NCBI RefSeq assembly: GCF_025966695.1
Contig: NZ_JAOEIY010000001.1
Location: forward strand, 804,079-868,078
Length of the DNA stretch: 64,000 bases
Direction of reading: 5' to 3'
DNA from: Stutzerimonas sp. S1
GTDB lineage: Bacteria > Pseudomonadota > Gammaproteobacteria > Pseudomonadales > Pseudomonadaceae
Part shown: positions 1,769 to 4,343 of the stretch, in pieces
Layout: each line of letters begins with the position of its first letter
Numbering within the stretch: the stretch's first letter is position 1
Notes under the pieces: model-generated
Told to the model about the DNA's origin: nothing
The model's database searches: none
The model's input: the letters and a program-made list of their open reading frames with translations, nothing else
Position numbers and translations under genes: made by a program

Positions 1769-3028
1769 CTAGGCGACGGCTGTCTGCCCGGACGCAACCG
1801 CTGCCGGCCGGCCCAGGCTTTGCGCCACCACGTCGCCGATCATGTCCGCGGTGATCGCGCTCAGCGTCCAGCCCAGATGACCGTGGCCGGTGTTGTAGAA
1901 CACACACGGCGCGCTGCCGCGACCCACCTTGGGCATCATGTTCGGCATCATCGGCCGCAGCCCGGCCCAGGGCACCACGCTGCGGGTGTTCACGCCGGGG
2001 AAGCACTGGTTGACCCACTCCACCAGCGGGCGGATGCGATCGGCGCGGATGTCGCGGTTGTAACCGTTGAACTCGGCGGTGCCGGCGACGCGGAAACGAT
2101 CATCGCCGAGGCGGCTGCTGACCAGCTTGGTTTCGTCGTCGAGCAGGCTGACGATGGGTGCCGAGGCGCGGCTGAGCTCGTCGGTCAGGTTGACCGTGAT
2201 CGAGTAGCCCTTGACCGGGTAGATGTTCACCCGGTCGCCCAGCTGCGCTGCCAGAGCGCGGCTGGCGGTGCCGGCGCAGATCACCAGGCCGTCGAAATCC
2301 AGACGCTCGCTGCCGCCAACGCCACCCAGCGTCACGGTCGCGCGCTTGCCGTCAGTGGCCACCGCCTGCACGTCCTCGCCATACAGGCAGCGCACGCCGA
2401 GCCGCTCGATCGCCATGGCCAGGCCATAGGTGAACTTGTGGATGTCGCCGGTAGAGTCGCACTCGGTGAAGTAGCCACCGTAATAGCTGCCGGCCAGGGT
2501 TGGCTCGATGGCGCGCATCTCCTCCGGCGTCACGCTGCGCCGCGGCAGGCCGCCTTCGGCAAGCAGGCGTGAAACCTCAGCGGCATGCTCGAAGCCAGCC
2601 TTGTCGCGGTAGATGTGCAGGATGCCCTTCTTCTTCAGGTCGAAGTCGATGCCTTCGGCCTCGGCCCAGGCGAACAGGTGCTCGCGCGCGGCGATCGCCA
2701 GGCGTGCGGTTTCGATGGTGTTCTGCCGGTAATTGGGAATCGAGCCGATGAACTCGGCGAACCAGGACAGTTTGTGCCAGCTGGGCTTGGGATTGACCAA
2801 GAGCGGCGCATCACTCTTGAGCATCCACTTGAGGCCCTTGACGATGGTCGACCAGTGGTTCCAGACCTCGGCATTGGACGCCGACAGCTGGCCGCCGTTG
2901 GCGAACGAGGTTTCCATTGCCGCGTAGCGGTGCTTTTCCAGCAGGGTAACGGAGAAACCGCGCTTGGCCAGGGCATAGGCGGTGGTAACGCCGGTGATGC
3001 CGCCACCGATGACTGCGATTGTTTTCAT
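1769..3028 (-). CDS. DadA-like FAD D-amino-acid (possibly glycine) dehydrogenase
   Basis: 419 residues. The N-terminus carries the FAD-binding Rossmann motif GGGITG followed by a glutamate-rich strand end (VTLLEKH), and the body matches the D-amino-acid dehydrogenase small-subunit/glycine oxidase fold (DAO family), with a conserved C-terminal GHGHLGWTLS. Such enzymes deaminate D-alanine or glycine to the oxo acid and ammonia and pass electrons to the respiratory chain. The leader is a tandem glycine riboswitch, so glycine is the likely inducer and perhaps a substrate. The ATG at 3028 has a GGAG at 3040-3037, eight bases away. It is a paralogue type rather than the canonical dadAX locus, as no alanine racemase is adjacent. 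The exact substrate is inferred. Confidence 0.85.
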   Translation of the reverse strand: MKTIAVIGGGITGVTTAYALAKRGFSVTLLEKHRYAAMETSFANGGQLSASNAEVWNHWSTIVKGLKWMLKSDAPLLVNPKPSWHKLSWFAEFIGSIPNYRQNTIETARLAIAAREHLFAWAEAEGIDFDLKKKGILHIYRDKAGFEHAAEVSRLLAEGGLPRRSVTPEEMRAIEPTLAGSYYGGYFTECDSTGDIHKFTYGLAMAIERLGVRCLYGEDVQAVATDGKRATVTLGGVGGSERLDFDGLVICAGTASRALAAQLGDRVNIYPVKGYSITVNLTDELSRASAPIVSLLDDETKLVSSRLGDDRFRVAGTAEFNGYNRDIRADRIRPLVEWVNQCFPGVNTRSVVPWAGLRPMMPNMMPKVGRGSAPCVFYNTGHGHLGWTLSAITADMIGDVVAQSLGRPAAVASGQTAVA

Positions 3029-3270
3029 TGTTGTCGCTCCAGAACGTCAGAGGGTCATAGCCCGTGCGCCCAACGCGCGGCGGGCGCCCCCTCTGTTCTG
3101 GACCTGAGAGATTCACGAGCGCATGACGGCTCGCTTGCTCCTTCGGTGCGCCCGGCGACGAAAACCGGGCGGCTCTTCAGAGTGTCAGCAGTGTTAGCGG
3201 TCCTTTTGCCTGAGAGTTTCCGGGGCGGTTGCTCCTTCGGCGCTGCCATACGGCAGTCTCTCCCGCTAGC
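3029..3270 (-). promoter_or_regulatory. Tandem glycine riboswitch with an SD-sequestering expression platform
   Basis: Read on the minus strand, aptamer I starts near 3270: P1 arms AGCGG/CCGCU, P2 arms CUGCC/GGCAG, then the conserved GCCGAAGGAGCAA and ACUCUCAGGCAAAAGGAC. Aptamer II follows after a short linker: P2 arms GCCCGG/CCGGGC, ACCGAAGGAGCAAGC, AUCUCUCAGGU, and P1 arms CUCUG (about 3185-3181)/CAGAG (3095-3091). Downstream, CCAGAACAGAGGG (3101-3089) can pair with CCCUCU and GUUCUGG (3055-3039); the GG of the Shine-Dalgarno GGAG is inside that pairing. The CAGAG strand cannot be in P1 and in this hairpin at once, so glycine binding should free the ribosome binding site. Aptamer identity is direct motif recognition; the switch direction is inferred. 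Confidence 0.93.
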
Positions 3271-3490
3271 ACATCGATGCGCGCCAAATGCCTGCGGCAA
3301 TCGGTCGCGAATCGAGGGTTACCCTGCCAGAAAAAAACGTTGCTGTAACCCCCGACTTTTGCCCGGGGCCACGCGGCGCTCTGGCGGGCCTTTGCCAGGG
3401 CGTGTAGCCGCCGGAGGGTGGATGGCCGCAGCCATCCACGCGGTGAGATGGTGGAGAGGATACGCGGTGCCTCAGGCTCGTTCCGGGTTC

Positions 3491-3565
3491 CGCGTGGAAA
3501 ATCGCTTTGCGAGTTTTCCACCCCACGCATTCGTAGGGTGGAAAACGGCGGAGCCTTTTCCACCT
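3491..3565. repeat. Two GTAGGGTGGA-family inverted repeats
   Basis: The first unit (3491-3527) has arms GTGGAAAA and TTTTCCAC around a TCGCTTTGCGAG core that folds on itself. The second (3532-3565) begins CGTAGGGTGGAAAA and closes with TTTTCCACC around CGGCGGAGCC. They sit between the 3' end of madM and the leader of the glycine riboswitch, both on the minus strand, where they may end or dampen read-through from the mdc/mad operon. Between 3271 and 3490 nothing else was recognised apart from room for a riboswitch promoter. Confidence 0.78.
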
Positions 3566-3572
3566 TGGGCGA

Positions 3573-4343
3573 TCAGCCCAGCAGCCCGCGCATGACGAAG
3601 AACAGCAGCGACGGCCCGAGCAGGCAGCCCAGCGCGGTGTAGAACGCCGCGGTCAGGCAGCCGTAGGGCACCAGCTTCGGATCGGTAGCCGCCAGACCGC
3701 CGGCGACGCCGCTGGAGGTGCCGATCAGGCCGCCGAAAATGACCGCCGAGCGCGGGTTGTTCAGGCCGATCATCGGCGCGACGAAGGGCGTGGCCACCAT
3801 CACCAGGATCGCCTTGACCAGGCCGGCGGCGATCGACAGCGCCATGACCTCGGAGCTGGCGCCGATCGCCGCGCCGGTGACCGGGCCGACGATGTAGGTC
3901 ACCGCACCGGTGCCGATGGTGGTCAGGCTGACCGCATCGGTGTAGCCGAAGGCGATGGCCACCGCGACACCGGCGATGAACGAGGAGAACACGCCGACGA
4001 ACAGCGCCAGCACGCCCACCATCCCGGCGCGCTTGAGCTCTTCCACGCTGACACCGAAACCGGTGGCGACGATGGCGAAGTCACGCAGCATGGCGCCCCC
4101 GAGCAGGCCGATGCCGGAGAACAGCGCGATATCCACCAGGCCTTTCTGCCCGCCGGTCACCACGCCGCCGATGTAGGACAGCAAGAGGCCGATGAGGATG
4201 GCGACTGCCGAGCCGTGCAGACGGCCCTTGGTGAGCTTGTCCGACAGCCAGTAGGACAGCCACATGGTTGCGCCGATGAGGGCGAAGCCGCTGATCATGC
4301 CGTAGCCGGTGACCACTTTCATGAGCGATTCGTACATGGCCAT
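3573..4343 (-). CDS. madM: Malonate transporter subunit MadM
   Basis: 256 residues, almost entirely hydrophobic, with about eight membrane segments and glycine-rich small-residue helices. MadM works with MadL as a two-component, sodium-dependent malonate importer in the inner membrane (family knowledge from Malonomonas and Pseudomonas). It is the last gene of the mdc-mad operon. Its ATG at 4343 shares a base with the TGA of madL, so the two subunits are probably made in equal amounts. Confidence 0.92.
   Translation of the reverse strand: MAMYESLMKVVTGYGMISGFALIGATMWLSYWLSDKLTKGRLHGSAVAILIGLLLSYIGGVVTGGQKGLVDIALFSGIGLLGGAMLRDFAIVATGFGVSVEELKRAGMVGVLALFVGVFSSFIAGVAVAIAFGYTDAVSLTTIGTGAVTYIVGPVTGAAIGASSEVMALSIAAGLVKAILVMVATPFVAPMIGLNNPRSAVIFGGLIGTSSGVAGGLAATDPKLVPYGCLTAAFYTALGCLLGPSLLFFVMRGLLG

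Follow-up and report, generated by a model that had tools for sequence, protein, structure and literature searches.

Tandem glycine aptamers precede a gene for a flavin-dependent dehydrogenase

The window, a stretch of 64,000 nucleotides from Stutzerimonas sp. S1 (contig NZ_JAOEIY010000001.1), carries on its minus strand two glycine aptamers in tandem (3275-3083), which are followed by a single expression platform (3101-3037) and, just past it, by the start codon of the controlled gene at position 3028 (Table 1). Both aptamers exceed the gathering score of 32 bits of the RF00504 family, and a covariance-model search recovered them as the sole RF00504 matches of the whole genome. The Rfam scan at the scale of the window listed aptamer I and omitted one overlapping match of the same clan; the aptamer counts given here come from the genome-wide search and from sequence patterns. 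Because the only two matches of the genome precede the dehydrogenase gene, its single gcvP match (G000:C11:651422-654217) is without an RF00504 match nearby.

The controlled gene encodes a 419-residue flavoprotein of the DAO family that reaches 740.9 bits with the NF009074 (PRK12409) equivalog model (cut-off 494 bits) and stays with 326.8 bits under the 383-bit cut-off of the canonical DadA model (NF001933). The original prediction of two complete glycine aptamers ahead of a DadA-like gene is borne out by these scores and by those of the aptamers. A paralogue with 33% identity to the gene product is encoded elsewhere in the same genome.

Table 1. Features of the riboswitch-gene unit (positions in the window; OFF hairpin, predicted ligand-free structure that hides the ribosome-binding site)
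Feature	Position	Strand	Basis
Glycine aptamer I (RF00504)	3188-3275	-	cmscan 70.1 bits, E 1.4e-12, full length 1-94
Glycine aptamer II (RF00504)	3083-3190 (genome G000:C11:807161-807268)	-	52.9 bits, full length 1-94
P1 of aptamer II, 5' strand CTCTG	3178-3182	-	Fold prediction
P2-loop motif CGTC of aptamer II (complement of GACG)	3157-3160	-	Motif counts in relatives
P1 of aptamer II, 3' strand CAGAG, common to the OFF hairpin	3091-3095	-	Fold prediction
Anti-RBS strand CCAGAACAGAGGG, shared in part with the 3' end of aptamer II	3089-3101	-	Sequence, fold predictions, covariation
Small platform hairpin, tip of the OFF hairpin	3060-3085	-	RNAfold; present in relatives with other letters
Conserved GACG (the noted bulge plus one base)	3045-3048	-	Conservation in relatives
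RBS strand CCCTCTGACGTTCTGG, partner of the anti-RBS strand	3039-3054	-	Sequence, fold prediction
Shine-Dalgarno sequence GGAG	3037-3040	-	Sequence
D-amino-acid dehydrogenase family gene (PRK12409/NF009074), likely orthologue of Cupriavidus dadA6	1769-3028	-	NCBIfam, Pfam DAO, primer position

Inverted REP-like sequences, recognised by eye, flank the riboswitch-gene unit (3480-3565 and 1648-1765; GGTGGAAAA... with TTTTCCACC) and may mark how the cassette entered the space that separates the malonate transporter genes (madL/madM) from a LysR gene. Upstream of aptamer I lies a block TTTTTTCTGGCAGGGT (3321-3337, minus strand), and TTTTCTGGCA occurs in 37 of 52 leaders from the family of the window. 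This block is a possible promoter or regulator site; the promoter scan around the leader gave no match, and none resembling a sigma-70 promoter at the block itself.

The arrangement is general among the sampled beta- and gamma-proteobacteria

RF00504 matches (stricter filters) are present in 101 of the 298 genomes of the family to which the window belongs, and NF009074 matches above the cut-off in 53. The tandem lies ahead of the gene in 52 of these 53 genomes, 48 of the same genus and four of genus g5; the sole exception (G249) carries a gene fragment (58-407 only) in a genome that is 73% complete. Seven other genomes of the same genus without an RF00504 match are also without an NF009074 match above the cut-off. 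The gene was also found in 71 of 399 genomes of the family of genome G424 and in eight of 369 genomes of the class sample, and the best 80 of the 592 loci from a protein scan belong to Stutzerimonas, Cupriavidus, Comamonas, Limnohabitans, Massilia, Variovorax, Marinobacter and Halomonas relatives, among others. Raw (unannotated) groups of open reading frames around 80 loci contained none that recurs in more than 16 of them besides the gene and the frames overlapping it.

We compared the leaders of 209 loci, of which 52 from the family of the window were fetched through the riboswitch and 157 through the protein alone. Three (L095, L106 and L163) were too short upstream; 196 of the remaining 206 parse as an aptamer II followed by this platform. 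For the riboswitch-fetched leaders this is so by selection (52/52), and the protein-fetched leaders from beta- and gamma-proteobacterial genomes parse in 144 of 154 cases. In nine short loci, the known position of the gene defined the start. Since some genomes are represented twice (L158, for example, is the locus of the window itself), the tests below are better based on the 163 distinct leaders (32 riboswitch-fetched, 131 protein-fetched). The riboswitch-gene arrangement is thus general among the sampled beta- and gamma-proteobacteria and is no local oddity.

Ten protein-fetched leaders do not parse. No riboswitch was seen by eye in five of them (L116, L118, L127, L153, L164), and L180 has retained only one aptamer; the others are L161, L211, L216 and L234. 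In L161 (G574, a genome of the same class), the PRK12409 gene stands behind a tandem with a transporter-type start of aptamer II and without the CGTC/GACG motifs discussed below, perhaps an exchange of the platform type. Homologues 63-67% identical to the window protein are encoded on plasmids of Rhizobium, Shinella and Burkholderia vietnamiensis (L269, L270, L271), again behind tandem glycine aptamers as judged by eye; their leaders were not matched by the leader search pattern and have another type of aptamer II.

Several further observations concern individual loci. Two PRK12409 matches per genome occur in G900 (L195/L233), G909 (L223/L224) and G871; the leader comparison includes each copy of G900 and G909, and the two G900 copies differ in their platform motif (GACA vs GACT). 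PRK12409 matches with one in-frame stop each were found in L157 (G540), G867 and G703. In genome G007 (L003/L056), a glycine aptamer lies ahead of a gene with a product match to solute-binding protein family 3 (PF00497).

In a midpoint-rooted protein tree (FastTree) with 148 leaves, from which 15 of the 163 leaders are absent on account of proteins that were not long enough, the genes of Stutzerimonas and g5 group together in a single clade with support 95. Its two successive parent nodes (91 and 97) add other leaves, among those printed Burkholderiales genes. The nesting of this clade near Burkholderiales genes suggests a joint acquisition of gene and switch.

Two predicted folds compete for the 3' end of aptamer II

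Aptamer II and the platform have a minimum-energy fold of -73.4 kcal/mol, in which the anti-RBS strand (3101-3089) pairs with CCCTCT (3054-3049) and GTTCTGG (3045-3039), GAC (3048-3046) bulging out between them, to form an OFF hairpin with 13 base pairs. A hairpin of this length that would hide the ribosome-binding site had been forecast from the sequence, and it is present in the predicted ligand-free fold; its RBS strand runs from 3054 to 3039, one base off the 3055 given originally. The three-base bulge that had been ascribed to it is likewise found unpaired in the hairpin, but these bases belong to the conserved GACG (3048-3045), an element of its own. The platform fold beats 199 of 200 dinucleotide shuffles (z -3.61).

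The CAGAG sequence is common to this hairpin and, according to the fold predictions, to P1 of aptamer II (P1-II), just as had been proposed. Enforcing P1-II costs 12.0 kcal/mol in the window and lowers the predicted pairing probabilities of G3040 and G3039 from at least 0.998 in the free fold to 0.35 and 0.31, respectively; the last G of GGAG (3037) has a pairing probability of 0.91 in both states, where it takes part in a weak local helix. Of the 163 distinct leaders, 149 have a predicted fold in which at least four anti-RBS bases pair with the stretch preceding the start codon, and the median energy gap is 10.1 kcal/mol. With P1-II enforced, anti-RBS pairing is seen in none of the 163; this count follows from topology, because the anti-RBS strand then lies inside the loop closed by P1, a pairing that a nested-fold program cannot draw. 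The mutual exclusion of the two folds and the sequestration of the ribosome-binding site are consistent with these predictions, with the covariation across relatives and with the precedent of the gcvT riboswitch of Neisseria gonorrhoeae.

The anti-RBS and RBS strands covary

Relatives carry matched variants of the two strands, such as CCAGAAC/GTTCTGG, CCAAAC/GTTTGG, CCAAGAC/GTCTTGG, CCAGGAC/GTCCTGG, CCAGCAAC/GTTTGCTG and CCGGAAAC/GTTTCCGG. For 26 distinct anti-RBS strands, the mean energy of the cognate duplex is -6.37 kcal/mol, compared with -4.53 kcal/mol (sd 0.31) for shuffled partners, and none of 10000 shuffles was as low; these shuffles are simple ones that ignore the relatedness among leaders. 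The duplex test and the loop-complementarity test reported in the next section used an earlier set of leaders (125/127). In tree-aware swaps between 38 path-disjoint pairs, the cognate partner was the better one in 23.7 and the swapped partner in 8.5 pairs on average (sign test, median p 0.014, range 0.0005-0.05). Hence, the anti-RBS pairing covaries, tree-aware contrasts included.

The two halves of the hairpin are kept to different extents. The window and a few relatives have an exact outer half (AGAGGG/CCCTCT), which is altered in most of the printed leaders from the same genus, whereas the CCAGAAC/GTTCTGG half and its covarying forms are retained across relatives. Several strands from Halomonas, Marinobacter and Nitrincola relatives form a weak cognate duplex that ranks low among all RBS regions.

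A possible contact between the P2 loop of aptamer II and the platform

The conserved GACG next to the ribosome-binding site has its complement, CGTC, in loop P2 of aptamer II. Both motifs were assigned in 158 of the 163 distinct leaders, and all four base pairs are possible in 146 of them. The tetramers were assigned by a rule and a hand-made override list; five leaders without recognisable motifs (L120, L121, L122, L134, L160) were set aside by hand, and seven placements (six in the platform, one in the loop) were corrected, which raised pair 1 from 141/158 to 148/158 and left pair 3 at 157/158. In 103 unique leaders, the P2 loop of aptamer II shows a best complementarity of 10.45 to the 30 nucleotides before the start codon, compared with 8.60 (sd 0.17) after shuffling (0/100 shuffles as high). 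No such excess was found in the same leaders for the P2 loop of aptamer I (91/100) or the P3 loop of aptamer II (25/100).

A contact between these motifs is about an even bet on the sequence comparisons, and it might belong to either the ON or the OFF state. Only 28 leaders depart from CGTC/GACG, which is unvaried in the other 130. Sixteen of these variants keep all four pairs with changed bases (AGTC/GACT in five, CGTC/GGCG in four, CGCC/GGCG in four, TGTC/GACA in two and GGTC/GACT in one), and the substitutions replace C-G by A-U, U-A or G-U at pair 1 and U-A by C-G or U-G at pair 3. Pair 1, which has changed seven times on each side across the leaders, is retained in 148 of 158 leaders where shuffles give 132.9 (0/5000 shuffles reach the observed value), and pair 3 is kept in 157 (1/5000). 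Furthermore, the two motifs do not occur together in any of 26 parsed leaders of other genes: CGTC was present in the P2 of aptamer II in none of the 15 transporter-type leaders and in one of the 11 other leaders from beta-proteobacterial genomes. In this control set, GACG by itself is frequent within 120 nucleotides past aptamer II, often within the gene (8/16), so that only the motif pair is informative.

Against these data stands the view that the two motifs make no contact, GACG being kept for the ribosome site, Hfq or Rho and CGTC for the folding of P2; we judge this to be a serious contender with a chance clearly under one half. Pairs 2 and 4 are nearly invariant and therefore uninformative, and 12 of the 28 variant leaders break a pair. 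The tree-aware tests have too little power to settle the matter: a sign test on independent pairs gave three for, one against and two neutral (p 0.625), and of 17 contrasts four were for, one was against and 12 were equal. They did not reach significance and leave the covariation of CGTC and GACG suggestive only. In addition, CGTC is predicted to lie inside the stem of several P2 hairpins of the Halomonas and Marinobacter types. We make no claim of a loop contact for the plasmid-borne homologues L269-L271, because the CGTC/GACG pair is absent there.

The start of aptamer II also sets these leaders apart: it reads GAA in 160 of the 163 distinct leaders and GGA in transporter-type and gcvT-type leaders, a class-specific G-to-A change within a conserved stretch of purines.

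The enzyme probably acts on glycine

The product of the dadA6 gene of Cupriavidus necator is described as a glycine oxidase (PMC11879842) and as a D-amino acid dehydrogenase that takes part in glycine oxidation (PMC12421819). In Cupriavidus neocaledonicus and Cupriavidus lacunae, the dadA6 reverse check primer matches 1232 nucleotides (two mismatches) and 1171 nucleotides (one mismatch), respectively, upstream of the riboswitch-linked gene, and these sites are the only matches within two mismatches in 2.27 Mb of both-strand sequence; C. necator H16 lies outside these data. For the forward primer, C. lacunae has an exact match that lies 1 kb inside a contig and faces its end; the gene is on another contig, which ends 286 nucleotides past the matched part of the gene, and the two primer sites are thus on separate contigs. 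In C. neocaledonicus, no forward-primer match with fewer than seven mismatches was found in the 7.2 kb around the gene, and the two matches with three mismatches lie on other contigs; reversed control primer patterns also match within three mismatches. Judged by the position of one check primer, the Cupriavidus riboswitch-linked counterpart of the window gene is likely DadA6. Claassens et al. reportedly found, in 2020, an oxidation-dependent native glycine route in C. necator.

A role of the enzyme in glycine disposal fits Cupriavidus DadA6 and is supported by this analogy. The best-scoring solved sequences for the gene product are glycine oxidases, which match it over part of its length. AlphaFold2 modelling with 12 close sequences gave a poor model (mean pLDDT 53), which was discarded for reading the substrate; the hits of a PDB search with it were flavin amine oxidases whose TM-scores ranged around 0.2-0.36, and no substrate reading was drawn from these.

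Alternatively, the enzyme might act mainly on D-alanine or other D-amino acids, with glycine serving the switch as a signal of cell-wall stress or of an imbalance between alanine and glycine. The family name, D-amino acid dehydrogenase, speaks for this, and so does the canonical E. coli DadA, described as very poor on glycine with a KM above 500 mM (PMC9436414). Moreover, the gene of the distant B. vietnamiensis plasmid homologue (63.6% identical) lies two genes before an alanine racemase gene and therefore fits the use of D-alanine. However, C. necator DadA6, which among characterised enzymes is the nearest relative by primer position, has been described as a glycine oxidase, and a glycine sensor would be an odd match for a D-alanine enzyme, yet it is kept in 144 of the 154 leaders chosen by protein. 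We consider a D-amino acid as the main substrate unlikely.

A translational switch that would be turned on by glycine

We propose, with a probability of roughly 80%, that the tandem glycine aptamers switch on the translation of the PRK12409-type FAD dehydrogenase when glycine is present, and that the enzyme probably converts surplus glycine to glyoxylate by oxidation. In the absence of glycine, the ribosome site would be paired with CCAGAAC...GGG, at the 3' end of aptamer II, in the long hairpin, a state that is predicted by folding and supported by covariation. With glycine, P1-II would take CAGAG and enclose the remainder of the anti-RBS strand, so that the first bases of GGAG are predicted to become free. 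The beta/gamma class may have an additional pairing between the P2 loop of aptamer II and the GACG adjoining the ribosome site, as conservation suggests. The glycine-ON logic is supported by its consistency with the fold predictions, the strand covariation and the Neisseria precedent. DadA-type dehydrogenases deliver electrons to the respiratory chain, and the electrons withdrawn by the enzyme would presumably take the same path.

At equilibrium, the gap of 12 kcal/mol would leave the switch OFF unless tertiary contacts, the ligand or kinetics compensate for it. A gap of this size (median 10.1 kcal/mol across the leaders) therefore makes it likelier that the choice between ON and OFF is made during transcription.

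The long hairpin just ahead of the start codon could instead act through premature termination of transcription, Rho-dependent or intrinsic. This is very improbable: no terminator-like site was found in 2990-3600, the covarying pairing spans the ribosome-binding site, and in Neisseria the response to glycine is described as persisting in the presence of bicyclomycin (PMC13104608). Rho-dependent polarity that follows upon translational repression is possible. An OFF switch, by which glycine would lower expression as it does for glycine transporter genes, is about as improbable, for although glycine riboswitches of both directions are known (PMC6944388), the predicted ligand-free fold hides the ribosome-binding site and P1-II is predicted to free it, aptamer II starts differently and lacks CGTC in P2 in the transporter-type leaders of this family, and the higher bit score of aptamer I in the window (70.1 vs 52.9) would be in line with the GCV context, in which aptamer 1 is described as the better conserved one (PMC6944388).

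A more far-reaching version of the glycine-ON reading has, in our estimate, a chance that falls just short of even: the leaders would form a distinct beta/gamma tandem subclass for respiratory glycine oxidation, in which the P2 loop of aptamer II pairs with the GACG next to the ribosome-binding site and whose cassette has moved as a unit between Burkholderiales and Stutzerimonas. Should the proposals made here hold, the D-amino acid dehydrogenase family would gain a concrete role in the oxidation of overflowing glycine, together with a sensor that reports glycine, and a testable contact between loop and platform would lie outside the RF00504 aptamer model. They would also explain why glycine could induce its own loss in Cupriavidus strains engineered for glycine-based one-carbon metabolism, where dadA6 is regarded as a wasteful sink.

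Comparison with known systems

The closest parallel in control is the gcvT riboswitch of N. gonorrhoeae, described as a glycine-ON translational switch in which a segment of aptamer 2 masks the region before the start codon, as tested with mutants (PMC13104608). Both systems comprise two RF00504 aptamers and one platform without a terminator, an anti-start pairing of aptamer 2 and translational control of the ON type, which is predicted in the case studied here. Because the Neisseria leader shows the same glycine-ON masking, our proposed mechanism would work like a known one. The Neisseria switch differs in that it controls gcvT-gcvH rather than a flavin dehydrogenase and in that its platform is described as poorly conserved among Neisseria; its accessible description holds no pairing between the P2 loop and GACG (PMC13104608).

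In the gcvT class, a pseudoknot between a C-tract in P3b and a G-tract has been attributed to Torgerson et al. (cited in PMC13104608). Like the putative contact proposed here, it pairs a loop of aptamer II with sequence past this aptamer, but it uses the P3b loop and the G-tract directly after aptamer II, whereas the P2 loop and the GACG by the ribosome-binding site would be used in our leaders. In the window, as judged by eye, a run of G residues is present (3091-3087), and the P3b loop is without a run of three C residues.

Leaders of PF03458 glycine transporter genes from other genera of the same family (L061-L063, L065-L076) have the same aptamer class in tandem matches, but they differ in the start of aptamer II (CTGGAGAG), in the lack of CGTC in P2 and in the gene that follows. 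The Pfam names obtained for genes of the control sample were glycine transporter for L061, L071 and L168, and GCV_T for L166, L167, L169, L174, L175 and L176.

Among enzymes, C. necator DadA6 is the likely orthologue by primer position, a member of the D-amino acid dehydrogenase family described as oxidising glycine; it comes from another species, and the accessible text of its two descriptions mentions no glycine riboswitch (PMC11879842; PMC12421819). The ThiO glycine oxidase shares with the window protein the FAD-dependent DAO family, and glycine oxidases head the solved matches, but the window protein scores 139.5 bits with the ThiO model (TIGR02352), under its cut-off of 250.8 bits.

A search of the open-access literature, with supplementary files outside its reach, found neither a glycine riboswitch on a D-amino-acid dehydrogenase gene nor a pairing between a P2 loop and a ribosome-binding site in the accessible texts. 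An additional file of Sun et al. (2013; PMC3766115) is described as containing twelve orthologues of glycine metabolism, and the window gene may already be among them; further related literature comprises PMC2211319, PMC12452182, PMC13273304, PMC2258182 and PMC8224422. What the present analysis adds to the known systems is the target gene, a platform whose strands covariation makes readable in many genera, and a possible contact of the P2 loop.
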